From Clostridia bacterium (GTDB lineage: Bacteria; Bacillota; Clostridia; Oscillospirales; CAG-272): a stretch of DNA of 57,311 bases. Positions within the stretch are counted from its first letter, which is position 1. Each line of letters begins with the position of its first letter. Made by a program: the position numbers and the translations under genes. Positions 26,108-49,677 of this stretch are shown piece after piece. The notes below the pieces were generated by a model that was not told the DNA's origin, did not search any database, and saw only the letters and a program-made list of their open reading frames with translations. The DNA is taken from positions 1-57,311 of the forward strand of contig JAFTXO010000011.1 in the NCBI GenBank assembly GCA_017461765.1, read 5' to 3'.

Positions 26108-26125
26108 TTTTGAGAGGTAATAATC

Positions 26126-27058: not shown

Positions 27059-27067
27059 ACTGAAAAT

Positions 27068-27104: not shown

Positions 27105-27148
27105 TATTAAATAATGATATTAATATAGAAATTATGGAGACAATAAAT

Positions 27149-27706: not shown

Positions 27707-27707
27707 A

Positions 27708-28919: not shown

Positions 28920-28930
28920 GGTTATACGAG

Positions 28931-34638: not shown

Positions 34639-34860
34639 ATGATTTTGAGTTTTTCCGACATTACGGAGTTTAAAAAAGCGATCGATCAGAGATTTTCTAT
34701 CAAAATACACTTTCACGACTGCTGCGGAGGACAGCATTTTACGGTTGATGAGATGACTGAGGAGCTTAAGGAATATATCGCATCATACTTTGCCGAGCGC
34801 AAGCTGAAGGTGCGTTTTTCGGAAGACAGTAAACACTTCTCCGTGGAGGAACTTTCATAA
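34639..34860 (+). CDS. Small RDAC-like protein, 73 aa
   Basis: A 73-aa acidic protein with KIHFHDCCGGQHFTVDEM near the centre and a C-terminal helix-strand. It resembles short Firmicute proteins called RDAC family, where the motif reads RDAC; here it is HDCC (recollection, not searched). Function unknown; the paired Cys and two His could bind a metal, and copA lies just upstream. AAAGG ribosome site. Its stop overlaps the tcdA start by one base, so the two are coupled. Confidence 0.65.
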   Translation: MILSFSDITEFKKAIDQRFSIKIHFHDCCGGQHFTVDEMTEELKEYIASYFAERKLKVRFSEDSKHFSVEELS

Positions 34861-35627
34861 TGCTGAATCAATTTTCAAGAACCGAGCTTATATTCGGTAA
34901 GGAAGCGATGGAACGGCTTGCTAACGCTCGTGTTGCAATATTTGGAATCGGCGGAGTTGGTGGATATACTGTAGAAGCGTTGATTCGGTCGGGCGTGGGA
35001 GCGATCGATCTCATTGACGATGACAAGGTTTGCCTTACAAATATCAACCGTCAGATCTATGCAACGAGAAAGACGGTTGGAAAATATAAGGTGGACGTTG
35101 CTGCTGAGCGTATTGCCGAGATAAATCCAAATGCTACTGTTCGTACCTATAAAACATTTTACACACCCGAAACAGCGGAGCAATTTGATTTTTCGCAGTA
35201 CGATTACATCGTAGATGCCATTGATACCGTGACAGGAAAGATTGCGCTTGTTATGAATGCCAAAGCCACAGGAACTCCAATCATCAGTTCTATGGGCGCA
35301 GGAAACAAGGTCGATCCCACGGCATTTGAGGTAACGGATATTTATAAGACTTCGGTTTGCCCTCTTGCCAAGGTTATGCGTTATGAGCTTAAACGAAGGG
35401 GAGTCAAAAGGCTCAAGGTCGTATATTCAAAGGAAAAGCCGATCACTCCAATCGAGGATATGGCAATAAGCTGTAAGGCTCACTGCATTTGTCCTCCGGG
35501 TACAGCAAGAAAATGTACTCAAAGAAGGCAAGTTCCGGGCAGTAACGCCTTTGTTCCCTCGGTTGTTGGTTTAATTATCGCAGGAGAGGTAATCAAGGAT
35601 CTAACCAAGTTAAAAATACAAAAATGA
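34860..35627 (+). CDS. tcdA: tRNA threonylcarbamoyladenosine dehydratase TcdA (ThiF family)
   Basis: A 255-aa E1-like enzyme. FSRTELIFGKEAMERL start, nucleotide loop GIGGVGGYTVEALIRSGVG near 29-47, DDDKVCLTNINRQI, and the TcdA-type Cys segment CKAHCICPPGTARKC near 205. In the family it uses ATP to cyclise t6A37 to ct6A, helped by a CsdA/CsdE-type sulfur relay, which links it to the desulfurases nearby. It differs from the MoeB-like E1 enzymes at 37634 and 43975, which carry zinc CxxC pairs. Confidence 0.9.
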   Translation: MLNQFSRTELIFGKEAMERLANARVAIFGIGGVGGYTVEALIRSGVGAIDLIDDDKVCLTNINRQIYATRKTVGKYKVDVAAERIAEINPNATVRTYKTFYTPETAEQFDFSQYDYIVDAIDTVTGKIALVMNAKATGTPIISSMGAGNKVDPTAFEVTDIYKTSVCPLAKVMRYELKRRGVKRLKVVYSKEKPITPIEDMAISCKAHCICPPGTARKCTQRRQVPGSNAFVPSVVGLIIAGEVIKDLTKLKIQK

Positions 35628-35657
35628 TCGTTTACGGAAAAGAGAGGAATATCAAAA

Positions 35658-36113
35658 ATGACAATATCGACGAAAGGCAGATATGCACTGAAAATAATGA
35701 TAGATCTTGCGGAAAACGGTGACGGTTCTTATATTCCGATGAAAAAGGTCGCGCAACGTCAGGGACTTCCGCATAAGTATTTGGAACACATTCTGCCTGT
35801 GTTGACTCAAAATCACATCGTTGAAGGGCAGCACGGCAAGGGCGGCGGATACCGCTTGACGAGGAAACCCGAAGAATACACCGTGGGCGAAATTCTTCGC
35901 TTGGCAGAAGGAGACCTTGCCCCCGTTGCCTGCCTTGAGTGCGGAGCAGAGCCTTGCAAAAAAGTGAATGAGTGCCGTACAATATCAATGTGGAAAAATT
36001 TGCAGTCTTTGATTGACGGATATTTTGACGGTATCACAATCAAGGATCTTACGCGCAACGGCGAGAACAACACAAGCGGAATTGATATTTCATTTTTGGA
36101 TGCAGCATTATGA
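35658..36113 (+). CDS. Rrf2-family transcriptional regulator (CymR/IscR-like)
   Basis: A 151-aa winged-helix regulator: STKGRYALKIMIDLAEN, then MKKVAQRQGLPHKYLEHIL (HTH), and HGKGGGYRLTRKPEEYTVGEIL (wing). It has a Cys cluster CLECGAEPCKKVNEC near 95-109, typical of redox or Fe-S sensing in IscR relatives. Given the surrounding sulfur genes, it is the best candidate to bind the two 21-bp sites at 24595-24655. Its last codons overlap the LysR gene (ATGA). The AGAGG ribosome site fixes the start. Confidence 0.9.
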   Translation: MTISTKGRYALKIMIDLAENGDGSYIPMKKVAQRQGLPHKYLEHILPVLTQNHIVEGQHGKGGGYRLTRKPEEYTVGEILRLAEGDLAPVACLECGAEPCKKVNECRTISMWKNLQSLIDGYFDGITIKDLTRNGENNTSGIDISFLDAAL

Positions 36114-37048
36114 CAATACACCAATTACATTACGTGATCACAATTTCCGAGACGGGCTCCTTTAATAAGGCGGCGGAAATTCTCTATGTAGCACAGCCAT
36201 CTCTGACAAGCTCAATAAAAGAACTTGAAAAGGAACTCGGTATTTCTATCTTTCACAGAAGCGGAAGAGGCGTAACGCTTACCAATGACGGAGTGGAGTT
36301 CGTGCTGTACGCCCGTCAATTATATCAGCAATATGAATCGCTTATGCAAAAGTACGGGAAGATGGGTACGCTGAAAAAGAAATTCGGAATTTCCACACAG
36401 CACTATTCTTTTGCGGTAAAAAGCTTTGTCGAGATGGTGAAGAAATTCAATACGGCGGAATATGAATTTGCCATCAGAGAAACGAAAACAAGAGATATTA
36501 TAGATGACGTAAGCACCGGTAAAAGCGAGATCGGAATTATATATTTGAGCAATTTCAACCGTATGGCAATTACGAAGCTGTTGCACACGAAGGATCTCGA
36601 ATTTCATGAGCTGACTGCTTGCGAAGCTTATGTATATCTGTGGAAGGGACATCCTCTGGCGAGCTGCAAGTCAATCCGTTTTGAACAACTCAATGAATAT
36701 CCTTGCCTGTCCTTTGAGCAGGGAGATAACAGCTCCTTCTATTTTGCCGAAGAAATACTCAGCACCAACGAGTACGCGAGAACAATCAAAGCGAATGACC
36801 GAGCGACGATGCTGAATCTGATGATCGGTCTGAACGGCTATACACTTTGCTCGGGTATCATTTGTGAGGAATTGAACGGCAGTGATTACATTGCAGTTCC
36901 GTTTGAGCACGAGAATTTGGAAAGTGCAGATCGAATGGTGATCGGTTATATTACGAGAAAAAATATGCCGCTCAGCCGTATGGGAGCCCTTTATATTGAC
37001 GAAATTAAACAGTATTTAGACGAATATCATAAGCCTGCTGAGGCGTAA
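36110..37048 (+). CDS. LysR-family transcriptional regulator
   Basis: A 312-aa LTTR. N-terminal HTH (LHYVITISETGSFNKAAEILYVAQPSL, residues 5-31), linker helix, then a periplasmic-binding-like effector domain. It overlaps the Rrf2 gene by four bases and ends just before a terminator and an LTTR-type dyad at 37108-37121. The same dyad recurs before the 47366 operon, so it likely activates both, with a sulfur metabolite such as O-acetylserine as co-inducer (inference; CysB/CysL precedent). Confidence 0.9.
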   Translation: MTIHQLHYVITISETGSFNKAAEILYVAQPSLTSSIKELEKELGISIFHRSGRGVTLTNDGVEFVLYARQLYQQYESLMQKYGKMGTLKKKFGISTQHYSFAVKSFVEMVKKFNTAEYEFAIRETKTRDIIDDVSTGKSEIGIIYLSNFNRMAITKLLHTKDLEFHELTACEAYVYLWKGHPLASCKSIRFEQLNEYPCLSFEQGDNSSFYFAEEILSTNEYARTIKANDRATMLNLMIGLNGYTLCSGIICEELNGSDYIAVPFEHENLESADRMVIGYITRKNMPLSRMGALYIDEIKQYLDEYHKPAEA

Positions 37049-37092: not shown

Positions 37093-37107
37093 ATTATAGG
37101 ATTAATC

Positions 37108-37162
37108 TATACCTCGGTATACTTATCATGTATTGGACAAAGAACGTGACCGGTAGTATAAT
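37108..37162 (+). promoter_or_regulatory. LysR dyad and promoter of the carrier/encapsulin operon
   Basis: TATACC-TC-GGTATA dyad (37108-37121), then TTGGACA (37133-37139) and TATAAT (37157-37162). Dyad and -35 are 11 bp apart, as at 47263. The first gene's ribosome site GAGG follows near 37191. Confidence 0.78.
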
Positions 37163-37202: not shown

Positions 37203-37634
37203 ATGTTGGTTTTGAGTAGTGAGACGCAAAAAGCTTTATATTTTCACGCCGAAACGGAATACCCGGAGGAATGCTGCGGAATCCTGCTCGGCAAGCGGGA
37301 AAAAGAGAAAAAATTCGTATATAAAGCAATTTGTACAGAGAACGTAGGAAATAAAAAACTGAAAACGACACATTTTGTAATGGATCCTCTTGAGATTGCA
37401 AAGACGGAAGCGTCGGCAGAGCAGGAAGGACTTGAAATCGTCGGATTTTATCATTCGCATCCGAATTATGCGGCATCGGCATCAAGAGAAGATGCATTTT
37501 ATATGCTTGCAGGTTACTCATATCCCATTATTTCAATCAGTGACGGTGCGTATCAAATGGCTTGCTTTGAAAAAGGTTCACCGACGAGTGTCGAGGTAAA
37601 AGAAGAGAAAATCATGATACAAGGAGAGACATAA
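37203..37634 (+). CDS. JAMM/MPN-family (M67) metallopeptidase, first copy
   Basis: A 143-aa zinc peptidase. Catalytic Glu E23 in PEECCGILLG; zinc motif H84-S-H-P followed by S-x-x-D in HSHPNYAASASRED. Bacterial JAMM peptidases of this size trim residues behind the C-terminal GG of ubiquitin-like sulfur carriers. The next gene, coupled by a one-base overlap, encodes a MoaD domain whose GG is internal, so it is the likely substrate. The start is the ATG 8 bases after GAGG; longer readings begin inside the promoter and are rejected. Confidence 0.87.
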   Translation: MLVLSSETQKALYFHAETEYPEECCGILLGKREKEKKFVYKAICTENVGNKKLKTTHFVMDPLEIAKTEASAEQEGLEIVGFYHSHPNYAASASREDAFYMLAGYSYPIISISDGAYQMACFEKGSPTSVEVKEEKIMIQGET

Positions 37635-39097
37635 TGCAGATACAGGTATATATATCGGCAACACTCAGAGCCTTTGCCGAACGCAAGGCAAAAGTGGAAA
37701 TAGAGGGAAGTACGGTTCGTGAGGTGCTGGGGCGGTTGCAGGATGAGTATCCCGAAAGCAAAAAGGCTTTATTTGAGGAAAGCGGTGCGCTCCGCCCATT
37801 TGTGAGCGTTTTTGTAAACGAAGCGCCTATTGCGACGGATTCGGAGTATGATACAGCTTTGAAGGAAACCGATAAGATCCTATTATTGCCCATTATTGCG
37901 GGGGGCGCTCCTACAGAGAGTGTGATCTCGGATGAACGGAGAAAGGAAGTATCTCTTGATGATGCGGAGATTGAACGGTTTAACAAGCATTTGATGCTCC
38001 GTGATATCGGCGTGAAAGGACAAAAGCGTATCAAAGCGGCGAAGGTTCTGATCGTCGGTCTTGGCTCTCTCGGTTCACCTGTTGTGCAGTATTTGGCGGC
38101 AGCGGGAGTGGGAACCATCGGAATTGCCGATTTTGATGAGGTATCTCTCGGAAATCTGCAAAGCCAAGTCATTCACGGCACACGAGACGTGCATCGTCCA
38201 AAAACAGCATCGGCAAAGGATACGATTAAGGCGATCAATCCCAAAATCAAGATCGAAGCGTACAATGAGAAGCTTGAGTCCGACAACATTGCGAATATTA
38301 TCGGTGAGTATGATGTTGTTGTGGATTGTACCGACAATTATAAGTCACGGTACTTGATAAACGATGCCTGCGTATTGCTCGGTAAGCCTGTCGTTTTTGG
38401 TGCGATGTATCAATTTGAGGGACAGGTAAGCGTTTTTGATGCGAAATCTGGACCATGCTTCCGATGTCAGTTTCCATCACCGCCGCCTGTGGGACTTGTT
38501 CCTACCTGTTCCGAGGGCGGAGTAATCAGTCCCTTGCCGGGACTCATCGGCAGTATTCAGGCAAACGAAGTCTTAAAGCTGATTATAGGTGGCGGAGAGA
38601 CTTTGATCGGAAAATTACTTGTGGCTGACACGTGGAATCTTCATTCCTCTGTTTTGAACATCCACAAGAGTGAGAATTGTCCGATATGTGGAAGCAATCC
38701 CACAATTACAGAAATAGAAGACTTTGACTATGAGGACTTTTGCGGACTGCGACAAACAGAGGAAGAAACGCCCGTAGAAGTGATCACCGCTGAAGAATTG
38801 GTTGCAAGAATCGAAAGGGGGGATACCATCACGATTGTGGACGTAAGAGAGCCCCATGAGAGAGCAATTCATCGCTTCCCGAATGCGATCGTTATTCCGA
38901 TTGGACAGTTGGCAAGACGGCAAAAGGAGCTTGATCCTGATATTGACACCGTTTTTATCTGTCGAGAGGGCAAGAGAAGCATTTTGGCAATCAATACGTT
39001 GAGAGATGCCGGATACAAAGGACCCATGTATAGCCTCGCGGGCGGCATTGAGTCGGCAAAGAATATCATTTTCTCTCACGAAGGTGCATGGCTGTAA
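37634..39097 (+). CDS. MoaD - MoeB/ThiF - rhodanese three-domain fusion
   Basis: A 487-aa fusion. Residues 1-91 are a ubiquitin-like MoaD domain ending LPIIAGG at 90-91, followed directly by more protein. Residues 112-360 are a MoeB-type E1 with VLIVGLGSLGSP, ATP/adenylation residues, zinc pairs CFRC and CPIC, and the catalytic Cys in VPTCSEGGV. Residues 378-487 are a rhodanese with the persulfide Cys in VFICREGKRS. So carrier, activating enzyme and sulfur donor are in one chain. The GG must be freed by cleavage to act as a thiocarboxylate; the JAMM peptidase upstream is the obvious candidate. MoeB-rhodanese fusions are known; the extra N-terminal carrier is less common. Confidence 0.9.
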   Translation: MQIQVYISATLRAFAERKAKVEIEGSTVREVLGRLQDEYPESKKALFEESGALRPFVSVFVNEAPIATDSEYDTALKETDKILLLPIIAGGAPTESVISDERRKEVSLDDAEIERFNKHLMLRDIGVKGQKRIKAAKVLIVGLGSLGSPVVQYLAAAGVGTIGIADFDEVSLGNLQSQVIHGTRDVHRPKTASAKDTIKAINPKIKIEAYNEKLESDNIANIIGEYDVVVDCTDNYKSRYLINDACVLLGKPVVFGAMYQFEGQVSVFDAKSGPCFRCQFPSPPPVGLVPTCSEGGVISPLPGLIGSIQANEVLKLIIGGGETLIGKLLVADTWNLHSSVLNIHKSENCPICGSNPTITEIEDFDYEDFCGLRQTEEETPVEVITAEELVARIERGDTITIVDVREPHERAIHRFPNAIVIPIGQLARRQKELDPDIDTVFICREGKRSILAINTLRDAGYKGPMYSLAGGIESAKNIIFSHEGAWL

Positions 39098-39184: not shown

Positions 39185-40132
39185 ATGGCAAAAGAAGAAC
39201 AAGCAATCAAGGCATTAGGGGCACGTGCCGCGTATAATTTGGCGAATGTCACCAAGACGAAGCCCCAATACGGTGCGATTACACCGAAATGGCTCACAAA
39301 GCTTTTGGAATTTAAGGGACTTGAAACAGGTATCTATCGTGTAAACAAGGTCGTTGAGGGTGATACGCCTCTTGACGTTTTGTGCAGCCAGACCAAAAAA
39401 ACCGATATTATTCCCGACGGTTACATAGAGTATGAGGAAGAACCCAGAGAGTATCGTCTCAGCTCGATTTCCACCATTATCAATGTCAATACGGCAATCG
39501 AGGATGTGTACAGCGCACCCTACGATCAGGTAAAGGAGCAGCTTGCTCTTGCCATCGAGAGCCTTCGTGAAAGACAGGAGAGTCAGCTCATCAACAATGA
39601 TGACTACGGACTTCTCAAAAACGTACCCGAATCCCAGAGAATCCAGTCTCGCACCGGCGCGCCCACGCCAGACGATCTCGATGAGCTTATTACAAAGGTT
39701 TGGAAGGAGCCTTCTTTCTTCCTCGCTCACCCCAGAGCTATCGCGGCATTTGAAAGAGAATGCACAAAACGTGGCGTTCCGCCCGTAACGGCAAATATTG
39801 CGGGTGGTACCTTCATTCTTTGGAGAGGTATTCCGATCATTCCTACCGACAAGCTTTTGGTAGATGGACTCAAGAACCCCAAGAGCCAGAGCGGTAAGAC
39901 CAATATTCTTCTGGTTCGTACAGGAGAGGCAAAGCGCGGTGTTATCGGTTTGTATCAGGCAGGCATGAAGAATGAACAGTCTAGAGGGTTGTCTGTAAGA
40001 TTCAGAGGCATTGACGACAAGGGTGTTGCATCTTATCTGTTGTCTCTCTATTGCTCTGCGGCGATTCTTGCAGATGATGCAATTGCCGTACTTGAGGATG
40101 TTGAGGTAGGCGAATATTATGACTACGAATAA
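39185..40132 (+). CDS. Family 2A encapsulin shell protein (SrpI-like)
   Basis: A 315-aa HK97-fold shell protein of encapsulin family 2A. Recognised by GARAAYNLANVTKTKPQYG, ITPKWLTKLLEFKGLE, EYRLSSISTIINVNTAIEDVYS, FFLAHPRAIAAFERECTKRG, LWRGIPIIPTDKLLVDG, and a C-terminal GVASYLLSLYCSAAILADDAI. There is no cyclic-nucleotide-binding insert, which separates 2A from 2B. In Synechococcus and Acinetobacter, shells of this group enclose a cysteine desulfurase, and sulfur storage has been reported. The next gene, overlapping by 14 bases, is that cargo. The GGAG ribosome site is 8 bases before the ATG. Confidence 0.93.
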   Translation: MAKEEQAIKALGARAAYNLANVTKTKPQYGAITPKWLTKLLEFKGLETGIYRVNKVVEGDTPLDVLCSQTKKTDIIPDGYIEYEEEPREYRLSSISTIINVNTAIEDVYSAPYDQVKEQLALAIESLRERQESQLINNDDYGLLKNVPESQRIQSRTGAPTPDDLDELITKVWKEPSFFLAHPRAIAAFERECTKRGVPPVTANIAGGTFILWRGIPIIPTDKLLVDGLKNPKSQSGKTNILLVRTGEAKRGVIGLYQAGMKNEQSRGLSVRFRGIDDKGVASYLLSLYCSAAILADDAIAVLEDVEVGEYYDYE

Positions 40133-41870
40133 TTTTGAAGGGAATGCCGTCTCTTTGGGGTTGCCTTCGGAATTAGAGCTTACCGAACTTGCGAATCAGT
40201 TGTTTCCGGATATTGACGGAAGTCTTTTTCAGCCTGAGGCTTGCGCGGACGGTATCGAAAAGCTTGTTACCACAGGGGATACAGGTGTCGTTGATACTGC
40301 CGCAGGCAAGGCTACAAGGGTATTCGGAGGACAGCTCGGTGCAGAGGATTTCGAGAATATTCTCGTAGAACTGAAATATGATGAACTGTCGGGCGTCAAG
40401 GTCGAGTATCCTGCCTTTACGGATGTTGGAGGTACCTATCAACCGCTTGAGGATCACACTGCGGCATATGCGTATGCGGAGCCGGAGAGAAAGCAGACCG
40501 TAGGATATTCACCTCGCGTCATTTCCCAGCATCAAGCGGATTCTGATGATGAGATACAAGCTCGTACTACGGCAGATGACAACAACGTGATCTCTGCCAA
40601 GGATAACGGAGGCGTGAAAGCCGATGCGGTTGGCGGTCAGAAAAACAACAGTCAGATCGTGATCGGAACCAAGACGCTGGAGCAGATTCGCCGAGATTTT
40701 CCGATTTTACAGGAAAAGGTCAATGGCAACCCGCTTATTTGGCTTGATAACGGTGCTACCACCCAACGCCCGAAGCAGGTAATCGATAGACTCAGCTACT
40801 ATTACGAGCACGAGAACTCCAATGTGCACAGAGGCGCACATACACTGGCGGCAAGATCTACCGATGCCTATGAAAAGGCAAGACAGACCGTTGCGGACTT
40901 CATTGGGGCTCCCTCTAAGGACAATATCGTTTTTGTGAGGGGAACCACAGAGGGAATCAACTTAATCGCGCATTCCTATGTAAAGCCCTTGCTACAGCCC
41001 GGCGATGAGATCATCGTATCGCTTCTTGAGCACCACGCAAATATTGTTCCGTGGCAGCTCGTAGCACAGGAGACGGGGGCAGTCATCAAGGTTATTCCCG
41101 TGGATGAGACGGGACAGCTGATACTTTCGGAATATGAGAAGCTGTTTACGAAGAGGACGAAATTTGTCTCGGTTACTCACGTTTCCAACGTTCTCGGAAC
41201 GATCACTCCCGTTGCGGAGCTGATCGCAATTGCTCACGCTCACGGTGTTCGCATTCTCATTGATGGCGCACAGTCTATTGCACACATCCCCGTGAATGTC
41301 AGCGCACTTGATGCCGATTGGTTTGTATTTTCGGGACACAAGATCTATGCGCCAACGGGTATCGGTGCTATATACGGTAAAAAAGAGGTTCTTGAGGAAG
41401 CCAAGCCATATCACGGCGGCGGTAATATGATCAAGGACGTTACCTTTGAGCGAACGGTGTACAATCCCGCCCCCAACAAGTTTGAAGCAGGAACAGGCAG
41501 TATTGCCGATGCGGTGGGCTTGGGTGCGGCTCTTGAGTATCTGAATGGGATCGGTATGGCGGCAATCAGCCAATATGAGCACGAGCTTGTTAGCTACGGC
41601 ATGAAGGAGCTCGGTAAGATTGAGGGACTTCATCTGATTGGCACGGCACGCAACAAATCAAGTGCATTGTCCTTTGTGATCGACGGTATTTCCAATGATG
41701 CTGTTGGGCAGAAGCTGGATCAGAACGGCATTGCCGTGCGTGTCGGTCATCACTGCGCACAGCCGATTTTGAGGCACTACGGTCTGGAGGGCGTTGTGCG
41801 TCCCACTCTGGCACTATATAATTCCTTTGAGGATATCGACACACTCGTCAAGGTGCTCAGATCATTATAA
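40119..41870 (+). CDS. Encapsulated cysteine desulfurase (family 2A cargo, SufS-like)
   Basis: A 583-aa protein. Residues 1-187 are low-complexity and probably disordered, with a short hydrophobic motif near the start (GLPSELELTELANQLFPDI) of the kind that docks cargo in the shell. Residues 188-583 are a SufS/CsdA-type desulfurase: IWLDNGATTQRP, NVHRGAHTLAARST, PLP lysine K408 in SGHKIYAPTGIGAIYG, catalytic Cys C546 in VRVGHHCAQPILRHYG. It turns cysteine into alanine and a bound persulfide. The start lies inside the shell gene, which ties its translation to the shell. There is no SufE or SufU beside it; TusA and the rhodaneses may be the acceptors. Confidence 0.93.
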   Translation: MTTNNFEGNAVSLGLPSELELTELANQLFPDIDGSLFQPEACADGIEKLVTTGDTGVVDTAAGKATRVFGGQLGAEDFENILVELKYDELSGVKVEYPAFTDVGGTYQPLEDHTAAYAYAEPERKQTVGYSPRVISQHQADSDDEIQARTTADDNNVISAKDNGGVKADAVGGQKNNSQIVIGTKTLEQIRRDFPILQEKVNGNPLIWLDNGATTQRPKQVIDRLSYYYEHENSNVHRGAHTLAARSTDAYEKARQTVADFIGAPSKDNIVFVRGTTEGINLIAHSYVKPLLQPGDEIIVSLLEHHANIVPWQLVAQETGAVIKVIPVDETGQLILSEYEKLFTKRTKFVSVTHVSNVLGTITPVAELIAIAHAHGVRILIDGAQSIAHIPVNVSALDADWFVFSGHKIYAPTGIGAIYGKKEVLEEAKPYHGGGNMIKDVTFERTVYNPAPNKFEAGTGSIADAVGLGAALEYLNGIGMAAISQYEHELVSYGMKELGKIEGLHLIGTARNKSSALSFVIDGISNDAVGQKLDQNGIAVRVGHHCAQPILRHYGLEGVVRPTLALYNSFEDIDTLVKVLRSL

Positions 41871-41936: not shown

Positions 41937-43184
41937 ATGGAATTCAACACAAAAGTACTACACGGCAAATCAGTAAGACGCCCCTGTGACGGCGCCACAC
42001 TTCCTACCATCAGTCAGGTGAGCGCATTTTCGTATGAAACCGCCGAAGAACTGGAAAAGGTTTTTACAAACAGAGCACCGGGATTTGCATATACGAGAAT
42101 CGGCAATCCTACGGTAGATGCTTTTGAAAAAAGGATCTGTGAGCTTGAGGGCGGTCTTGCCGCTACTGCGTGTTCTTCCGGTATGGCGGCGATCACAGCG
42201 GCACTGCTGAATATATTACAGTCCGGAGACGAGATAATTGCAGGCGCGGGGCTTTTTGGCGGTACGATCGATCTGTTTGGCGATCTTGAAGCGTACGGTA
42301 TTAAAACCAGATTCGTAAAGCAAGTAAATGCTGAACAGATAGAAAAGAATATTACGGATAAAACAAAAGTCATATTCGGTGAGCTGATTGGCAATCCCGG
42401 GCTTGATGTGATGGATGCTTCGAGTGTTGCCGCTCTTGCCCATAAAAACGGTATTCCGCTGATGGTGGATGCCACAACGGCGACACCGTATCTTGCCCGT
42501 TCCATCGAATACGGTGCAGATATCGTGATCCATTCTTCATCCAAATATATCAACGGAAGCGGCAACTCGGTCAGTGGAATTATCATTGACAGCGGTAATT
42601 TCAAGTGGAATACGGAAAAGCATCCCGCACTTGCAAAATACAAAAAGTTTGGTAATTTGGCTTTTACCGCAAGGCTTCGAGGCGATACTTGGAGAAATAT
42701 CGGCGGATGTCTTGCACCGATGAACGCATATCTGAACATTGTCGGTCTTGAGACCTTGGGGCTTAGAATGCAGAGGATCTGCGATAATGCGCTTGCCCTT
42801 GCAAAAGCTTTGGAAGGCATCGATGGCATCAGCGTCAATTATCCCGGACTTGAGAGTAGTCCTTATTATCCTCTTGTAAAAAGTCAGTTTGATGGAGACG
42901 GCGGAGGTATTGTGACACTCAGGGCAGGCACAAAGGAGCGGGCATACCGCCTCATGAACTCTTTGAAATACGCCTTGAAGGCAACAAATATCGGGGATAC
43001 AAAAACCTTGGTGATCCACCCCGCCTCAACCATTTACCTGCATAGCACGGAGGAACAGAAGAACAACGCGGGCGTATATGATGATACGATCCGAGTCAGC
43101 GTCGGTATAGAAGGCGAGGCGGACTTGATAGAAGATTTTGTCGAGGCAATTAAGCGTCTTGACAAAACGGAAGGAGAAGAATAA
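41937..43184 (+). CDS. O-acetylhomoserine sulfhydrylase-like PLP enzyme
   Basis: A 415-aa Cys/Met-metabolism PLP protein: FNTKVLHGKSVRRPCDGATLPTIS, FAYTRIGNPTVDAFEKRICELEGG, CSSGMAAITAAL, and PLP lysine in VIHSSSKYINGSGNSVSG near 205. It differs from the MetY at 24821 and is closer to a second MetY/MetZ-like group. Next to a carrier, E1 and JAMM set, it may use a carrier thiocarboxylate as sulfur source, as reported for Wolinella MetY (inference). The start is the ATG six bases after GGAG; a TTG start four codons earlier is rejected. One base overlaps tusA. Confidence 0.85.
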   Translation: MEFNTKVLHGKSVRRPCDGATLPTISQVSAFSYETAEELEKVFTNRAPGFAYTRIGNPTVDAFEKRICELEGGLAATACSSGMAAITAALLNILQSGDEIIAGAGLFGGTIDLFGDLEAYGIKTRFVKQVNAEQIEKNITDKTKVIFGELIGNPGLDVMDASSVAALAHKNGIPLMVDATTATPYLARSIEYGADIVIHSSSKYINGSGNSVSGIIIDSGNFKWNTEKHPALAKYKKFGNLAFTARLRGDTWRNIGGCLAPMNAYLNIVGLETLGLRMQRICDNALALAKALEGIDGISVNYPGLESSPYYPLVKSQFDGDGGGIVTLRAGTKERAYRLMNSLKYALKATNIGDTKTLVIHPASTIYLHSTEEQKNNAGVYDDTIRVSVGIEGEADLIEDFVEAIKRLDKTEGEE

Positions 43185-43429
43185 TGGCAGCTTATGAAAT
43201 TAACGATACGGTGGATATTACGGATGTAAACTGTCCGATCACATTTGTAAAAGCAAAGGTAGCACTCGACGAGCTTGAGGACGGCGAGGTTCTGAAGGTT
43301 CATATGAACGGTGGAGAGCCCGCAAACAATGTGCCGAGAAGCTTCAAGGAAGAAGGTCATGAGGTTCTTGAACTTATGGAGAATGCTGACGGTACATTCG
43401 ATCTCATCGTCAGAAAGGTAGGAGATTAG
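43184..43429 (+). CDS. TusA-family sulfur carrier
   Basis: An 81-aa TusA/SirA-fold protein. The persulfide Cys is in ITDVNCPITFVKAKVAL near 20 (CP-x-T in place of the usual CP-x-P), followed by DGEVLKVHMNGGEPANNVPRSFKEEGH. TusA proteins take persulfide sulfur from a desulfurase and pass it on. Here the desulfurase is the encapsulated one or a rhodanese. It ends in TAG, showing that TAG is a normal stop in this genome. Confidence 0.9.
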   Translation: MAAYEINDTVDITDVNCPITFVKAKVALDELEDGEVLKVHMNGGEPANNVPRSFKEEGHEVLELMENADGTFDLIVRKVGD

Positions 43430-43432: not shown

Positions 43433-43750
43433 ATGGCACAGAGAGTGACTTATCATGAGTTTCAGGAAAAAGTAGTCGCTTTTTCGGGGCTTTCACTGGT
43501 TGACTTTTATTCTGATACCTGTGTTCCGTGCAAACGGATGTCACCTGTGCTCGCCGCACTGGAAGCCCAGTATCCGAAAGGACTTTATATCGCGAAGGTC
43601 AATGTGGCGTATGAGCGTGAGCTGGTGGAGGAATATGGGATCCGTTCCACCCCCACGTTTCTGCTTTTCAAAAACGGCGAGGTAGTTGACCGTTTTTCGG
43701 GCGCAAAAAGAAAAGAAGATCTGGAAAAGATCATTGAAGCTAATATATAA
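43433..43750 (+). CDS. Thioredoxin
   Basis: A 105-aa thioredoxin. Active site SDTCVPCKRMSP near 30, where the usual W before the first Cys is T and the inner pair is VP rather than GP. The cis-Pro is in IRSTPTFLLFKNG near 76. It probably reduces persulfides or disulfides in the sulfur relay, with the TrxB-like enzyme at 45218 as its reductase. Starts three bases after tusA. Confidence 0.9.
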   Translation: MAQRVTYHEFQEKVVAFSGLSLVDFYSDTCVPCKRMSPVLAALEAQYPKGLYIAKVNVAYERELVEEYGIRSTPTFLLFKNGEVVDRFSGAKRKEDLEKIIEANI

Positions 43751-43768: not shown

Positions 43769-43975
43769 ATGAAGATTACAGTATCGGGCGAGGTAAAGGA
43801 AGTCAAGGAAGGACTGACTATAGCAGAGCTAATTGAACAGCAGAATGTGGAGAATCCGCAGTACGTATCGGTATCTGTCAACGATGAATTTGCAAAGAGT
43901 GAAGACTTTGCCACTTATGAACTGAAGGATGGAGATAATGTGGAGTTCCTGTACTTTATGGGAGGTGGTCGATAA
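43769..43975 (+). CDS. ThiS/MoaD-like sulfur carrier with C-terminal GGGR
   Basis: A 68-aa ubiquitin-like carrier: EVKEGLTIAELIEQQN, VSVSVNDEFAKSED, ELKDGDNVEFLYFMGGGR. Active carriers must end in Gly-Gly for adenylation and thiocarboxylate formation. Here Gly-Gly is followed by further residues (Gly-Arg or Arg, depending on which pair is used), so trimming is required. This matches HcyS of Wolinella, where the HcyD JAMM peptidase removes an extra residue. An E1 gene (overlap of one base) and a JAMM gene follow. Confidence 0.87.
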   Translation: MKITVSGEVKEVKEGLTIAELIEQQNVENPQYVSVSVNDEFAKSEDFATYELKDGDNVEFLYFMGGGR

Positions 43976-44781
43976 TGGCATTTACGAATGAGCAGTTGGA
44001 ACGGTATTCGCGCCATATCATTCTGAAGGAGATCGGCGTAAAGGGGCAGAAAAAGCTACTGAACGCCAAGGTGCTCATTATCGGAGCAGGAGGACTCGGC
44101 GCACCTGCGGCAATGTATCTTGCGGCTGCGGGAGTCGGAACCATCGGTATCGTGGATGCCGATGAGGTGGATCTCTCCAATCTTCAAAGGCAGATCATTC
44201 ACGCCACCGAGGATGTCGGTAAGCCCAAGGTACAGTCGGCAAAAGAGACGATGAATAAAATGAATCCCGATGTAACCGTCAATGCCTATCATGAGTTTGT
44301 CACCTCTGAAAATATTTTGGATCTGATCAAGGATTATGACTTCATTATTGACGGAACCGATAATTTTCCCGCAAAGTTCCTGATAAACGATGCTTGTGTT
44401 ATGGCAAAGAAGCCATTTTCCCACGCGGGAATCATTCGATTTAAGGGACAGCTTATGACTTACGTTCCCGGCGAGGGACCTTGTTACCGTTGCGTGTTTG
44501 AAAATCCGCCTCCCAAGGATGCGGTACCTACCTGTAAGCAGGCAGGCGTTATAGGAGCAATGGGTGGTGTCATCGGAAGTCTTCAAGCAATGGAAGCGGT
44601 GAAATATATAACAGGTGTTGGAAAGCTTTTGACAGGTTCCATACTGACATTTGATGCAACCACTATGAACTTCCGTAAAATTCCGATACCAAAGCCAAAT
44701 CCGAATTGTGCCGTATGCGGAACACATCCGACGATCACAAAGCTTATCGACTATGAGCAGGCTGAATGTGACGGCGTGTAA
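43975..44781 (+). CDS. MoeB/ThiF/HesA-type adenylyltransferase
   Basis: A 268-aa E1-like enzyme. RYSRHIILKEIGVKGQKKL start, VLIIGAGGLGAPAAMYLAAAG near 33-53, DEVDLSNLQRQIIH, zinc Cys pairs CYRC and CAVC, and active Cys in VPTCKQAGV near 185. It adenylates the GG end of a ubiquitin-like carrier, most likely the ThiS-like protein just before it. No rhodanese domain, unlike the E1 at 37634. Counterpart of HcyF in the Wolinella pathway (inference). Confidence 0.9.
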   Translation: MAFTNEQLERYSRHIILKEIGVKGQKKLLNAKVLIIGAGGLGAPAAMYLAAAGVGTIGIVDADEVDLSNLQRQIIHATEDVGKPKVQSAKETMNKMNPDVTVNAYHEFVTSENILDLIKDYDFIIDGTDNFPAKFLINDACVMAKKPFSHAGIIRFKGQLMTYVPGEGPCYRCVFENPPPKDAVPTCKQAGVIGAMGGVIGSLQAMEAVKYITGVGKLLTGSILTFDATTMNFRKIPIPKPNPNCAVCGTHPTITKLIDYEQAECDGV

Positions 44782-44796: not shown

Positions 44797-45207
44797 ATGA
44801 TCAGAATATCAAAAGAGGATTATCAGAAAATCATCAATCATGCACTTTCAGAGCTGCCGAATGAAGCCTGCGGCTTGATTGCGGGAAGAATTGACGGTGA
44901 AGATAAACGAATCGAGAGGGTGTATCTGCTCACAAATACAGATCAGTCGAACGAGCATTTTTCCCTTGACCCGAAGGAACAGCTCGCCGCTATCAAGGAT
45001 ATGAGAGCGAGCGGCTATCTTCCTCTCGGCAATTGGCATTCCCACCCCGAAACGCCGTCAAGACCCTCGGAGGAGGACAAACGGCTTGCCTATGACAAAA
45101 ACGCAAGCTATTTGATCCTTTCACTTATGGATCGCGAAGCTCCCGTGCTGAATTCGTTTCATATTGAGGGAACGGATGCAGCCAAAGAAGAGCTGATCGT
45201 TGAGTGA
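44797..45207 (+). CDS. JAMM/MPN-family (M67) metallopeptidase, second copy
   Basis: A 136-aa zinc peptidase. Catalytic Glu E23 in PNEACGLIAG; zinc motif in NWHSHPETPSRPSEED with the JAMM spacing. Similar in size to Mec of Mycobacterium and HcyD of Wolinella, which process or hydrolyse sulfur carriers. Likely substrate: the GGGR carrier at 43769, or a carrier-amino acid adduct. It shares only motif-level similarity with the first copy at 37203, so the two probably serve different carriers. Confidence 0.9.
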   Translation: MIRISKEDYQKIINHALSELPNEACGLIAGRIDGEDKRIERVYLLTNTDQSNEHFSLDPKEQLAAIKDMRASGYLPLGNWHSHPETPSRPSEEDKRLAYDKNASYLILSLMDREAPVLNSFHIEGTDAAKEELIVE

Positions 45208-45217
45208 CGGTGGCAAA

Positions 45218-46117
45218 ATGAGAGATCTACTTATCATAGGAAGCGGTCCTGCCGGAATGTCCGCTTCCGTTTATGCTAAAAGAGCAAACTTAGATGTATT
45301 GGTTGCGGAGAAAGAGTATCTCGGTACAGGGCAGATCGCAGAGAGCGCGCAGGTTGACAATTATATCGGACTTGTCGGAAAAAGTGGCTACGAGCTTGGT
45401 GAAATCTTCCGTCAGGATGCGGAGAGGCTGGGTGTAGAGTTTTATGAGGGCACTGCGATCAAAATTGAATGCGGTGACGGTTATTGGATCACAAGGTTTT
45501 ATAACGGAGAAGCTGTCGAATCAAAAACAATCGTTTACGCTGCGGGTGCTACGCACAGAAAATTGGGTGTGCCCGGCGAAGAGAATTTCATAGGAAACGG
45601 CGTATCCTTTTGCGCCTATTGTGACGGTTCTTTGTATGAGGACAAAATCGTCGCGGTAGTTGGCGGCGGTGATACGGCGCTTGACGATGCATTATACCTT
45701 TCGGATATTGCAAAGAAGGTATATCTTATCCATAGAAGAGACGAGTTCAGGGCTTCGGAAAATCGTGTACTCAAGGTAAAAGCCAAAGCGAATATTGAGC
45801 TGATCTTATCGGCAACGGTTTCGAAAATCATCGGAAATGACAGGGTGACAGCGGTTTTACTTGCCAACGGAAGCCGACTATCCATTGACGGTGTTTTTGT
45901 TGCGGTGGGTATGATTCCCGAGTCGCATCTTTTGAAGGATATTGTTCAGATAGATGAAAACGGTTACGTTATTACGGATGAAACCGGAGAAACGAATGCT
46001 CTCGGCTTGTTTGTGGCGGGAGACGTGAGAACGAAAAAGCTTCGTCAGGTCGTGACCGCAGTATCGGACGGAGCAAATGCCGCCATATCGGCGGTAGAAT
46101 ATTTGAAAAGTAAGTAA
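45218..46117 (+). CDS. Thioredoxin reductase-like FAD/NADPH oxidoreductase
   Basis: A 299-aa TrxB-type flavoprotein. FAD motif IIGSGPAGMSASVYAKRA near 6-23, redox pair in CAYCDG near 131, NADPH motif VVGGGDTALDDALYL, the phosphate-binding HRRDEFRAS, and the second FAD motif LFVAGDVRTKKLRQV. It should reduce the thioredoxin at 43433, giving the operon its own reducing power. The ATG chosen is 18 bases after a TTG that lacks a ribosome site. Confidence 0.92.
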   Translation: MRDLLIIGSGPAGMSASVYAKRANLDVLVAEKEYLGTGQIAESAQVDNYIGLVGKSGYELGEIFRQDAERLGVEFYEGTAIKIECGDGYWITRFYNGEAVESKTIVYAAGATHRKLGVPGEENFIGNGVSFCAYCDGSLYEDKIVAVVGGGDTALDDALYLSDIAKKVYLIHRRDEFRASENRVLKVKAKANIELILSATVSKIIGNDRVTAVLLANGSRLSIDGVFVAVGMIPESHLLKDIVQIDENGYVITDETGETNALGLFVAGDVRTKKLRQVVTAVSDGANAAISAVEYLKSK

Positions 46118-46142: not shown

Positions 46143-47186
46143 ATGAGCATAAATGAAACCGAAGAGCTTGAGGTGAAAAACATTTCGGCAGAGGATTTTG
46201 CTAAATTGGATTTTTCAAGGGTCACGCTTCTTGACCTGAGAGAAGAAGCCGAGGTATTGGTCGCGGGTATTGACGGTGCGATCAATATTCCTTTTTCCCA
46301 GACAGCACGGCGACTTGACGAAGTTCCAAAGGATATTCCCGTATATGTATTTTGTCGCACGGGGGATTGGAGCGAGGAGGTAGCCGAAATTCTTGCGGAC
46401 CGAGGATATGATGCTTACAATCTTGTCGGTGGGTTCAAGGCTTATAAGGAATATCTTGCCAGCTATAAGCCAATCAAAATTGATGCGAAGGGGCTCAAGT
46501 GTCCCGGACCTATCGTAAAGGTAGCAGATACCGTCAAGAGCCTTGCAGACGGTCAAAAGGTCGTTGCGGAAGCGACCGAGGATGCTTTTGCGTCCGATAT
46601 TGCCGTGTGGTGCCAAAGAACAGGCAACCATCTTGAAAAGCTGGAAGTTGATTCCGGCGTGATCACAGCCGTCATCGAAAAAAGAACGAAGCCCGCTGAA
46701 AACGTAACCGCATTACCGGACGGCAAAACCTTTGTCGTATTCAGCGGGGATCTCGATAAAACGATTGCCGCCTTTATTATGGCAAACGGTGCTGTCGCTA
46801 TGGGCAGGAAGGTCACTATTTTCTTTACCTTCTGGGGGCTCAATATTTTGAGAAAGCCCAAAAAGGTAAAGGTAAAAAAGACATTCATTGAAAAAATGTT
46901 CGGCTTTATGATGCCCAGAGGTACAAAAAAGCTTGGTCTTTCTCGAATGAATATGGGAGGAGCAGGCGCGAAGATGATTCGTGCCGTTATGAAGAGCAAG
47001 GGCGTGTCCTCGCTGGAGGAATTGATTCAGAATGCCATCGATCACGGCGTGAAACTTGTTGCTTGCCAGATGTCTATGGACATTATGGGAATTAAAAGAG
47101 AAGAGCTTATTGACGGTGTGGAGCTCGGCGGTGTTGCAACCTTCCTCGGATCAGGCGAGCAGTCTAATATGAGCTTGTTTATTTAA
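46143..47186 (+). CDS. Rhodanese - TusA - DsrE fusion protein
   Basis: A 347-aa protein with three sulfur-transfer domains. Residues 1-105: rhodanese, Cys in VYVFCRTGDWS near 70. Residues 112-185: TusA-like, Cys in DAKGLKCPGPIVKVA near 120. Residues 195-347: DsrE/DsrF-like, with FVVFSGDLDKTIAAFIMANGA and a candidate Cys in KLVACQMSMDIMG. The order resembles the C-terminal half of larger CoA-disulfide reductase fusions. It can pass persulfide sulfur between its own domains. Last gene of the operon, followed by a terminator. Confidence 0.9.
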   Translation: MSINETEELEVKNISAEDFAKLDFSRVTLLDLREEAEVLVAGIDGAINIPFSQTARRLDEVPKDIPVYVFCRTGDWSEEVAEILADRGYDAYNLVGGFKAYKEYLASYKPIKIDAKGLKCPGPIVKVADTVKSLADGQKVVAEATEDAFASDIAVWCQRTGNHLEKLEVDSGVITAVIEKRTKPAENVTALPDGKTFVVFSGDLDKTIAAFIMANGAVAMGRKVTIFFTFWGLNILRKPKKVKVKKTFIEKMFGFMMPRGTKKLGLSRMNMGGAGAKMIRAVMKSKGVSSLEELIQNAIDHGVKLVACQMSMDIMGIKREELIDGVELGGVATFLGSGEQSNMSLFI

Positions 47187-47247: not shown

Positions 47248-47262
47248 GTTATAGCTTTAATC

Positions 47263-47317
47263 TATAACTCGGTATATGTATCGTGTATTGGACAAATGGC
47301 GCTTGGGGTAGTATAAT
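47263..47317 (+). promoter_or_regulatory. Second LysR dyad and promoter
   Basis: TATAAC-TC-GGTATA dyad (47263-47276), TTGGACA (47288-47294), TATAAT (47312-47317). Spacing and sequence closely repeat the 37108-37162 module. Confidence 0.78.
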
Positions 47318-47365
47318 ATCTACATACTTAAAGGGTAGTTAATTTATCGGATCGAGGTGATACAA

Positions 47366-48502
47366 ATGGAATTTGATACGCTGTGCTTACACGCAAACGG
47401 GGATAAGAGAAACGGATACGGAGCTATCGCCACACCAATATACCAATCGGCAACGTTTGTACATGAGAGTGTTGAAGAAGTTTCGGAGTACAGCTACTCC
47501 AGACTTTCGAATCCTACAAGAGCACGTCTTGAAAAAACGGTAGCGTCTTTGGAAAACGGTACGGCAGCATTTGCATTTTCATCAGGCATGGCGGCGATAT
47601 CCGCGGTTATGAAGCTCTTTTCAGCCTCGGACCACATAATTGCATCGGATGATCTTTACGGTGGAAGCTTAAGGCTTTTCCGTAACGTCAATATGGCAGA
47701 GGGGATGACGTTCGACTTTGTAAACACAGCAGATATCAAAGCGGTGGAATCGCTGATTGGTGAGCATACTAAAGCCATTTACGCGGAAACGCCGAGTAAT
47801 CCGCTGATGCACGTTTCGGATATTGCGGCACTTGCGGAGCTTGCTCACAGATACGGTTTGCTACTGATTGTGGATAACACCTTTTTAACGCCATATTATC
47901 AGAATCCGCTTGACTTGGGAGCCGATATCGTGATACATAGCGGAACTAAGTACCTCGGCGGACACAATGATACATTAGCGGGCTTTGCGGTTGTAAAAAG
48001 CTCTGAGCTTGCGGAAAGAATCGCATACGTTTACAAGACCATCGGTGCAGCGCTCTCTCCCTTTGATTGCTTTTTGATCGAAAGAGGAATAAAAACCTTA
48101 CCTCTTCGAATGGATAAGATAAGCACAAATGCAAGAACGGTTGCACGGTGGCTTCGATGTAGAAAGGAAGTCAAAAAGATCTATTATATCGGCTTCGAGG
48201 ATCACAAGGGCTATTCAATATCGCAAAAGCAGTCAAGAGGCTTTGGCGGTATGATCTCCTTTGAGGTAGAAAGTCGGGAGCTTGCCGAGAATATCTTGGC
48301 AAATGTAAAGATTATTCAGTATGCCGAAAGCCTTGGCGGAGTGGATAGCCTGATTACCTATCCGATGCGCCAGACGCACGCTGACGTACCGGAAAAGGAA
48401 AGGCTTGAACGAGGCATCAACGACCGCTTCCTGAGACTTTCCATCGGTATCGAAAACGAAAAGGATCTGATAGAAGATTTAAGGCAGGCATTTGAACAAT
48501 GA
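47366..48502 (+). CDS. Cystathionine gamma-synthase/lyase-like PLP enzyme
   Basis: A 378-aa MetB/MetC/MccB-group enzyme. FDTLCLHANGDKRNGYGAI, YSYSRLSNPTRARLEKTVASLENG, and PLP lysine in DIVIHSGTKYLGGHNDTLAG near 200. Length fits cystathionine gamma-synthase or gamma-lyase (about 380). Gamma- versus beta-activity cannot be decided by eye. The AGGTGA ribosome site fixes the ATG. It overlaps the MalY-like gene by four bases; together they could interconvert cysteine and homocysteine or break down cysteine. Confidence 0.87.
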   Translation: MEFDTLCLHANGDKRNGYGAIATPIYQSATFVHESVEEVSEYSYSRLSNPTRARLEKTVASLENGTAAFAFSSGMAAISAVMKLFSASDHIIASDDLYGGSLRLFRNVNMAEGMTFDFVNTADIKAVESLIGEHTKAIYAETPSNPLMHVSDIAALAELAHRYGLLLIVDNTFLTPYYQNPLDLGADIVIHSGTKYLGGHNDTLAGFAVVKSSELAERIAYVYKTIGAALSPFDCFLIERGIKTLPLRMDKISTNARTVARWLRCRKEVKKIYYIGFEDHKGYSISQKQSRGFGGMISFEVESRELAENILANVKIIQYAESLGGVDSLITYPMRQTHADVPEKERLERGINDRFLRLSIGIENEKDLIEDLRQAFEQ

Positions 48503-49677
48503 GATACGATTTTGATACGATACACAATAGAAAAAATACAAATAGCTTAAAATACGATTTCGCAAAGGAAAGAGGCAAATCCGACGATCTGATTCCTTTG
48601 TGGGTTGCGGATATGGATTTTCGTGCACCCGATGAAGTGATTACCGCACTGAAAGAAAAGGCGGAGCACGGAATCTTCGGATACTCCGAGCCAAAGGCGG
48701 ATTATTTTGAGGCACTTGAAAATTGGTTTTCTACCCGTCATGGCTGGAAAGTCGATGGACGAAGGTTTGTGCAGACCTGCGGAGTGGTATTTGCGATCAG
48801 CGCACTTATAAGAGCTATCACAAATGTCGGTGATGCCGTGCTTATCTGCCAGCCTGTTTATTATCCCTTTGCACAGACGGTCATCGATAACAACAGAAAG
48901 CTGATCGTCAGCGAGCTTAAAAACGATAACGGCTATTATACCGTAGATTACGCGGATTTTGAGAGAAAAATAAAAGAAAACAAGGTTAAGCTTTTTATTC
49001 TCTGTAATCCTCATAATCCCGTGGGACGTGTCTGGACAAAGGAAGAGCTTACAAGGCTCGGAAGGATATGTCTCGAGAACGGTGTGTTCATAATCTCCGA
49101 CGAGATACACTGTGATTTCACCTACGAGGAAAACAAGCATACCGTGTTTGCAACATTGGGAAGAGATTTTGAAGAAAGCTGTGCGGTATGTACCGCTCCC
49201 ACAAAAACCTTCAATCTTGCCGGTCTTCATCTTTCGAATACTTATATATACGACGATAGCCTTCGCAGAAGATTTATTAAAGAGCTCGCAGCTCAGGGCT
49301 ACAGTCAATCAAACATCATGGGTCTTATTGCTTGTCAAACGGCGTATACATACGGAGCTGATTGGCTTGACGAGCTGAAAATTTACCTTAAGCATAATCT
49401 TGCTTTTGTTCGCGAGTATCTTATAGAAAACATCCCAAGGATCAAGCTTGTTGAGCCGCAGGGAACTTACCTTGTATGGCTTGATTGCAGGGGCTTGGGA
49501 CTTACGGATAATGAGCTTAAACACTTTATTCAGGACGAAGCTAAGCTCTGGACCGATGACGGATATATTTTCGGTGCAGGGGGAAGCGGATATGAAAGGA
49601 TCAATATTGCGTGCCCAAGAAGCATTTTGAAGTCGGCTTTGAAAAATCTGAAGCACGCGACAGATAAAATACAGTAA
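48499..49677 (+). CDS. MalY/PatB-type cystathionine beta-lyase
   Basis: A 392-aa aminotransferase class I/II protein of the PatB/MalY group (C-S beta-lyase). It starts YDFDTIHNRKNTNSLKYD; LIPLWVADMDFRAPDEV is the family hallmark; CNPHNPVGRVW near 173; PLP lysine in TAPTKTFNLAGLH near 235. It cleaves cystathionine or cystine to release homocysteine or sulfide plus pyruvate and ammonia. Coupled to the MetB-like gene. Confidence 0.92.
   Translation: MRYDFDTIHNRKNTNSLKYDFAKERGKSDDLIPLWVADMDFRAPDEVITALKEKAEHGIFGYSEPKADYFEALENWFSTRHGWKVDGRRFVQTCGVVFAISALIRAITNVGDAVLICQPVYYPFAQTVIDNNRKLIVSELKNDNGYYTVDYADFERKIKENKVKLFILCNPHNPVGRVWTKEELTRLGRICLENGVFIISDEIHCDFTYEENKHTVFATLGRDFEESCAVCTAPTKTFNLAGLHLSNTYIYDDSLRRRFIKELAAQGYSQSNIMGLIACQTAYTYGADWLDELKIYLKHNLAFVREYLIENIPRIKLVEPQGTYLVWLDCRGLGLTDNELKHFIQDEAKLWTDDGYIFGAGGSGYERINIACPRSILKSALKNLKHATDKIQ

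Follow-up and report, generated by a model that had tools for sequence, protein, structure and literature searches.

How does sulfur leave a family 2A encapsulin, and what is it used for afterward? A gene cluster of a Clostridia bacterium bears on this question. It lies on contig JAFTXO010000011.1, which is analyzed here in its entirety (the window, 57,311 bp) and which belongs to a 1.65-Mb metagenome-assembled genome (MAG) with a completeness of 81%. A sequence-only reading of the window had proposed a family 2A encapsulin with a desulfurase in a sulfur operon and overlapping shell and cargo genes, and both points are borne out by profile scores and position: the shell gene (39185..40132, + strand) and the desulfurase gene (40119..41870, +) share 14 nt. 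Upstream of the shell lies a gene for a MoaD-MoeB-rhodanese fusion (37634..39097, +), with ThiS, ThiF, and Rhodanese domains over cut-off. The presence of a fused, probably protease-released carrier beside the shell suggests how sulfur might get out and be built back into cysteine and homocysteine. We regard it as an evenly balanced proposition that this encapsulin has a dedicated protein-thiocarboxylate relay as its sulfur outlet.

The shell protein (315 residues) scores 489.8 bits on the NCBIfam family 2A model NF041162 (cut-off, 380), with the whole model covered (1-295), and 377.9 bits on the 2B model, below the cut-off of 400. It has no second Pfam domain and, judging from its sequence, is without the cyclic-nucleotide-binding insert that marks 2B. 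Its best solved relatives are 8t6r (E 4e-112) and SrpI (6x8m). The AlphaFold shell model is of low confidence (predicted local distance difference test [pLDDT], 42.6), and no conclusion was drawn from it. The cargo (583 residues) has a SufS-type desulfurase domain at about residues 187 to 581 (SufS subfamily, 546 bits; cut-off, 475.1), following an N-terminal extension of about 185 residues. It misses the cut-off of NF041166, the "family 2A encapsulin cargo desulfurase" model (784 versus 800 bits), which is matched from position 172 on, with the N-terminal part unmatched; we call it cargo because of its domain and its position next to the shell rather than because of that cut-off. Lys408 and Cys546 are kept in 78/78 sequences. 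For the LARLANEFFS-type targeting motif the window cargo has LTELANQLFPD; the pattern LxxLAN, a poor test of cargo, occurs in 55/78 sequences and misses those of S. elongatus and Azospirillum. The second published targeting motif, AASPYYFLDG, was not seen when the window cargo was inspected by eye. The shell presumably encloses the desulfurase, and that it may store sulfur is a notion drawn from work on other family 2A shells.

The conservation of this arrangement was surveyed in the best 80 of 237 relatives of the shell from a scan of named GTDB genomes, so that the counts describe this shell clade and not all of family 2A. The 80 loci (85 to 97% identical) come from Lachnospiraceae, Ruminococcus, Pseudobutyrivibrio, other Clostridia, and three Treponema; they represent largely gut Clostridia, and many are of rumen or cecum origin. 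By record title they stem from 77 isolates, with L049/L057, L056/L060, and L093/L095 as pairs whose shared isolate names point to two shell copies per genome or MAG, as confirmed for L093/L095 in genome G634. Genes were named by their best blastp match to proteins of the window or of G430, a genome of the same phylum whose shell is 86% identical and which also has carrier genes, and divergent genes may therefore escape the survey. Denominators are loci with enough flank on the relevant side, loci too short there being excluded. A 19-bit shell match with two stops (G514) and weak JAMM matches below 26 bits (our own genome, G490, G145, G286, and G311) were left out before counting. Related genomes share ancestry, and the linkage counts are not independent trials.

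The linkage of fusion, shell, and cargo is far beyond chance. In 78/78 testable loci the gene immediately upstream of the shell is the fusion, and in 77/77 the one immediately downstream is the desulfurase; a JAMM gene precedes the fusion in 56/70 loci, the serine acetyltransferase gene cysE is near the shell in 57/73, and 56 different gene orders occur among the 80 loci. In 299 genomes of the P. xylanivorans family, strong fusion matches (146 to 195 bits) were found in six genomes as seven copies, and a shell over cut-off was found in the same six, again as seven copies. Every shell follows its fusion, at about 1.6 kb from where the latter starts, and the G573 shell is divided between two contigs. 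In the phylum sample, fusion matches above 100 bits were confined to our own genome and G430, both of which have shells. The shell itself is present in 7/398 phylum genomes (our own included), in 1/96 relatives (our own genome only), and in none of the 28 other genomes of the genus that were searched. Shell and fusion distances correlate (rho = 0.74), though the shell diverges less: median distances across the 80 loci (L018 to L097) are 0.11 for the shell, 0.30 for the cargo, 0.39 for the fusion, and 0.68 for JAMM1. That the shell is so much more conserved than its partners suggests transfer or strong constraint on the shell.

Among the 35 loci with full flanks, any JAMM is present in 34, CysE in 28, MetY and TusA in 24 each, thioredoxin in 15, TrxB in 10, and a sulfite-reductase-like gene in 7. 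ThiS, MoeB, and JAMM2 together lie within about 10 kb in 24 of these loci, 22 of which also have MetY. The sequence-only reading had staked its proposal on conservation of the carrier genes with the shell, and the survey found this both in the fusion and in the ThiS set; the reducing genes that it had counted into the same system (thioredoxin and TrxB) proved optional. The conserved core is (JAMM)-MoaD.MoeB.Rhd-shell-desulfurase-(CysE), and the window operon is without CysE.

New in this analysis are the junction of the fusion and, as described below, the tail of the carrier-cluster ThiS. Gly90-Gly91, between MoaD and MoeB, is invariant in 80/80 aligned fusions (the window and 79 loci). The pair is preceded by P-x-[IVM]-A, with a single departure at P and another at A, and both glycines are encoded by all four Gly codons. 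The residue that follows is Ala or Ser in 73/80, and beyond it is a variable linker with insertions and deletions. Rhodanese Cys443 is kept in 79/79. The AlphaFold fusion model has a mean pLDDT of 80.5, with residues 88 to 93 below 50. Because an internal Gly-Gly cannot be thiocarboxylated, its preservation at the junction argues for release of the carrier. Abutting the fusion is JAMM1 (37203..37634, +; Prok-JAB over cut-off; start set by eye in an open reading frame [ORF] that opens at 37074; best solved relative, 2kcq), whose HxH..SxxD motif is kept in 57/57 sequences. Iyer et al. (2006; PMC1779556) proposed that JAB proteins free fused ThiS and MoaD domains. We propose that JAMM1 cuts the fusion after Gly91. 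Our own genome, the L018 genome, and nine isolate genomes (Lachnospiraceae and one Treponema) each gave two strong JAMM matches (at least 41 bits); G145 and G311, which have a shell but lack the fusion, gave none.

The ThiS-type carrier of the cluster (43769..43975, +; TIGR01683, 66.7 bits; cut-off, 37.45) ends in MGGGR, one residue past its glycines. In carrier-cluster ThiS sequences, 1 to 6 residues extend beyond the glycines in 52/52 (the window and L013 plus 50 loci; JAMM2 is present in 47 of the 50, and the other three run into the edge of a contig). ThiS in the thiG/thiH operons of such genomes ends in GGG, with a tail in 0/7 (six fetched and that of L013, which was kept out of the carrier count and served as a control). 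We propose that the tail is trimmed by JAMM2 (44797..45207, +; Prok-JAB, 90.5 bits; best solved relative, 2kks, E 4e-47), whose motif is kept in 49/49. Fused MoaD and carrier-cluster ThiS both look like precursors needing processing first, and the JAMM genes beside them fit release of the one and trimming of the other. Thiamine as the sole use of this ThiS was rejected: full-length ThiG (above 300 bits) occurs in only 7/14 genomes, and those seven have a separate, tail-less ThiS in the thiG operon. In our own genome, the only ThiS-family matches are the MoaD of the fusion and the carrier ThiS.

Relatives outside the clade help to place the fusion. The idea that it is unique to shells was rejected, as nine shell-less Bacillota genomes have weaker matches (64 to 92 bits) across the MoaD-E1 junction. 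In the five that were fetched, the junction Gly-Gly is present in three (L164 to L166), and the junction of L163 and L169 lies outside the coverage of the search pattern; all five have a JAMM gene and four have a cysteine synthase gene beside the fusion, within 8 to 12 kb. These shell-less fusions may be the source of the shell-linked one. Among 32 plasmid records with a shell match, five were opened. Plasmid pACIB of Aliarcobacter cibarius, whose shell shows about 70% identity, has an unfused version in the same order: a cysM-like gene, JAMM, MoaD ending in AGGI, MoeB, rhodanese, shell, desulfurase, cysE, and cysK. At 5215-7973 of this locus (L128), an IS5-family transposase gene separates the MoeB-like ORF from the rhodanese ORF, so that this strain seems to have its E1-rhodanese gene in two pieces. 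The plasmid 2A loci of Variovorax, Azospirillum, and Synechococcus have rhodanese, serine acetyltransferase, or CysK and no annotated carriers, and that of Methylosinus has no annotated rhodanese, serine acetyltransferase, CysK, or carriers. On our reading, the fusion is the customary rhodanese partner with an E1 and a carrier of its own added, and it would feed cysteine synthase after the fashion of CysO-MoeZR-CysM-Mec+.

Which products would the carriers serve? Use of MoaD for molybdopterin was rejected. MoaE was found in 0/14 genomes (the same search was positive in 11/14 control genomes, and our own genome is only 81% complete), which makes molybdopterin an unlikely target. Cysteine synthase and a CysE homologue were found in 14/14 genomes. 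The linkage of CysE to the shell, together with shell-less relatives beside cysteine synthase, indicates cysteine as a product, and homocysteine is indicated by the presence in the cluster of a MetY-like O-acetylhomoserine sulfhydrylase (41937..43184, +; Cys_Met_Meta_PP over cut-off; start set by eye, ORF opening at 41925), which scores 404.9 bits on the OAH_OAS_sulfhy model, under its cut-off of 495.1. The earlier interpretation is thus supported in part. Its proposal that protein carriers receive the sulfur for synthesis of homocysteine or cysteine is the best-supported reading, and its "complete" pathway is too strong, since serine acetyltransferase was not found among the window operon genes (a CysE homologue lies elsewhere in the genome) and blastp with the G430 sulfite reductase as its single query found no counterpart here.

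A working scheme would run as follows. The desulfurase inside the shell would take sulfur from cysteine, as shown for homologues. The sulfur would exit as a persulfide on the rhodanese of the fusion, which would replace the single-domain rhodanese beside other 2A shells. A JAMM1 cut after Gly91, predicted from the invariant Gly-Gly, would release MoaD ending in Gly-Gly, for adenylation by the MoeB domain and conversion by rhodanese sulfur into a thiocarboxylate (MoaD-COSH), by chemistry with precedents in MoaD, CysO, and MoaX. A cysteine synthase using O-acetylserine made by CysE would then accept the sulfur of MoaD-COSH, and cysteine would be drained into the shell in plenty and remade in need. 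In a parallel branch, ThiS, MoeB, JAMM2, and MetY would make homocysteine, with JAMM2 trimming the ThiS tail. Assembly of the shell, storage, cleavage, the direction of flow, and the acceptor enzyme are all presumed in this scheme. Its sharpest form is that encapsulin-stored sulfur does not leave as free sulfide and that a JAMM-released carrier, born inactive in fusion with E1 and rhodanese, unloads the shell to cysteine synthase; to this we give somewhat less than an even chance. If it is true, cutting of the precursor could decide whether sulfur is stored or spent.

Several observations weigh against this scheme. Desulfuration followed by resynthesis is a futile cycle unless the two are separated in time. 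Cysteine synthase (CysK) is present in only 9/35 full-flank loci and is not in the window operon, the nearest copy being at 26126. JAMM1 is not upstream of the fusion in 14/70 loci, no JAMM was found in the 20.9 kb that make up L095, and there is a single strong JAMM in each of two R. flavefaciens genomes and in G430, as in the fusion-less G286. Five other Bacillota shells (45 to 70% identical) come with a desulfurase and with no fusion in the stretches fetched, and the relay is therefore not general for family 2A; one fusion-less shell locus, L012, has a lone rhodanese match about 5 kb away.

The same genes can be explained in other ways. There may be no store, the shell only tuning or shielding the desulfurase while persulfide passes straight to rhodanese and carriers. 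Encapsulation in S. elongatus raises desulfurase activity about sevenfold (PMC8049743), and the constant partner of the shell here is a sulfur acceptor; later papers nevertheless describe desulfurase encapsulins as sulfur stores, and we consider the storeless variant unlikely while keeping it in view. It is improbable, in our judgment, that the shell is a sink that removes excess cysteine sulfur and that the carriers independently use sulfide to make cysteine and homocysteine. Sulfide from sulfate could indeed feed the carriers in G430, where CysD, CysN, and a sulfite-reductase-like gene lie beside them, and ThiS-MoeB-JAMM2 is close to the shell in only 24/35 loci. Yet a fusion with its own rhodanese adjoins the shell in every testable locus, and homologues of CysD and CysN occur in only 6 and 7 of 86 loci.

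Correlated shell and fusion distances, and a shell absent from the other genus genomes searched, as after transfer, would also be expected of a sulfur island whose genes are neighbours through joint transfer or regulation and share no common reaction. Against such an island stands the shuffled order of the outer genes beside a fixed order of fusion, shell, and cargo, and we find it quite improbable. MoaD might also act as a ubiquitin-like modifier of the shell, the desulfurase, or other proteins, to be removed by JAMM1; the match of JAMM1 and JAMM2 to the desampylase model (67 and 76 bits, below the cut-off of 130) and the near match of the MoaD domain to the SAMP1 model (51.7 bits, below 60) leave some room for this, but the fused rhodanese and the surrounding sulfur enzymes point to sulfur transfer and make a modifier role highly improbable. 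Under the preferred reading, a thiocarboxylate relay serving the shell, the clade would give a genetic answer to how sulfur leaves family 2A compartments and to its use, as the constant partner of the shell would be an enzyme making protein thiocarboxylates, to which its carrier is joined and next to which proteases are encoded. Two fields, those of encapsulins and of ubiquitin-fold sulfur carriers, would thereby be joined.

The cluster genes, from 34.6 to 49.8 kb, are all on the + strand, with intergenic gaps of -14 to 170 bp. Ahead of JAMM1 lies CTATACCTCGGTATA, followed after 12 bases by TGGACA-N17-TATAAT (37107..37162, +; 11/12 promoter match), and a second copy of the element, CTATAACTCGGTATA, lies with its promoter (47262..47317, +; 11/12) ahead of the cystathionine enzyme gene; CTATANCTCGGTATA stands 12 bases before TGGACA-N17-TATAAT at both sites. 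With up to one mismatch, CTATANCTCGGTATA has two occurrences each in our own genome and in the L018 genome, all exact and all at the cluster, and the reversed-pattern control gives two matches in our own genome and none in that of L018. At two mismatches, shuffles of the window give a mean of 0.40, with 5/100 reaching two; among 173 loci, exact matches occur only where loci cover these two sites. Only the two 11/12 promoter matches were taken further, the totals of the promoter and terminator scans being no better than in shuffles (27 versus a mean of 27.6 and 18 versus 16.4, respectively), and a search for RNA switches gave no Rfam match in the window at gathering scores. The shared promoter element suggests that JAMM1 to DsrE2 are probably a single unit, co-regulated with the C-S lyase unit. 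The adjacent LysR-type gene (36110..37048, +; HTH_1 and LysR_substrate over cut-off; equivalent position in L018) is the likely regulator of the cluster. In L018, a small ORF at 7700-8000 ending in ..TVTLIVQDGRVIQIEKTDKIRLKS, which we take to be YezD/DUF2292-like, lies between the promoter and JAMM1; it was not seen in the window.

The remaining genes of the first unit, all on the + strand, encode TusA (43184..43429; PF01206 over cut-off), thioredoxin (43433..43750; PF00085 over cut-off), the MoeB/ThiF-type activating enzyme (43975..44781; PF00899 over cut-off), the thioredoxin-reductase-like flavoprotein TrxB (45200..46117; TIGR01292, 310 bits, below the cut-off of 343.45), and a rhodanese-TusA-DsrE2 fusion (46143..47186; three Pfam domains over cut-off). 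The second unit comprises a cystathionine gamma-synthase/lyase-like gene (47357..48502, +; Cys_Met_Meta_PP) and a PatB/MalY C-S lyase gene (48499..49677, +; PatB, 457 bits; cut-off, 340). Every neighbour named in the sequence-only reading (the fusion, the O-acetylhomoserine sulfhydrylase-like enzyme, TusA, thioredoxin, ThiS, MoeB, JAMM, and TrxB) is present; the JAMM gene abutting the fusion and the rhodanese-TusA-DsrE2 gene had gone unmentioned. The latter triple fusion is another candidate sulfane-sulfur relay, and such matches occur in 9/35 full-flank loci. The gene order of the window recurs in L018, an independent MAG from roe deer cecum, apart from MetY, which was not detected there between the genes for cargo and TusA; this recurrence speaks against an assembly artefact. 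Just 5' of the LysR gene (34860-36113), a TcdA-like ThiF protein and an Rrf2-type regulator are encoded, in an order kept in L018. A second sulfur block (24803-30426, + strand; genes named by inspection and blastp) holds a MetY-type enzyme, CysK, an HD-domain-like ORF, an IscS-type desulfurase, and MnmA, so that the genome has ordinary sulfur enzymes alongside the encapsulin cluster.

Among known systems, SrpI/CyD of Synechococcus elongatus (PMC8049743, PMC8346489) resembles the window in its shell family and in its overlapping or adjacent desulfurase with a long N-terminal extension. Family 2A desulfurase operons with serine acetyltransferase and rhodanese partners were already known, and SrpI/CyD and the window clade share the CysE and rhodanese partners (PMC8346489). 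Unlike in SrpI/CyD, the rhodanese of the clade is fused to E1 and MoaD, and JAMM and ThiS/MoeB/MetY genes are in the cluster. The CysO-MoeZR-CysM-Mec+ pathway of M. tuberculosis (PMC3227635) shares a MoaD-like carrier, a rhodanese E1, and a JAMM protein with the window, and cysteine synthase is the acceptor there as it would be in relatives of the clade. CysE here implies O-acetylserine, whereas CysM of that pathway uses O-phosphoserine. The window also differs in that its carrier is fused to E1 and coupled to an encapsulin; of the CysO-type set it has the carrier, rhodanese E1, and JAMM, with cysteine synthase outside the operon (26126).

The HcyS-HcyF-HcyD-MetY homocysteine pathway of Wolinella succinogenes reportedly uses a ThiS-like carrier with an extra C-terminal residue, an E1 without rhodanese, a JAMM protein, TusA/SirA, and an O-acetylhomoserine sulfhydrylase. 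The corresponding genes, for a tailed ThiS, E1, JAMM, and MetY, are in one cluster in the window; unlike in Wolinella, an encapsulin and a second carrier are present here, and no sulfite reductase was identified in the operon. Class 4e operons (PMC1779556) are the group to which a route of the ThiS-MoeB-JAMM2-MetY type belongs, and the shell-less clusters of MoaD-MoeB(-rhodanese), cysteine synthase, and JAMM in other Bacillota are akin to class 4c of the same paper; no shell was found in their genomes, and their fusions score 64 to 92 bits versus 146 to 209 for shell-linked ones. In MoaX, the MoaD-MoaE fusion of M. tuberculosis (PMC4326299), MoaD is likewise fused in frame and is active only after a cut between GG and Ser, a position held by Ala or Ser in most fusions of the clade. 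In MoaX the partner is MoaE and the protease is given as unknown; in the clade, MoaD is joined to E1-rhodanese and usually has a JAMM gene as neighbour.

No paper joining an encapsulin with a sulfur carrier or thiocarboxylate was found in a search whose reach excluded most subscription papers and supplements, and the only paper found with both "encapsulin" and "JAMM" is a very long review (PMC12857756) in which each word occurs once. Family 2A operons, thiocarboxylate carriers, and JAMM-carrier operons were each known before, and the comparison suggests that what is new in this clade is the joining of an encapsulin operon with carrier and JAMM genes.

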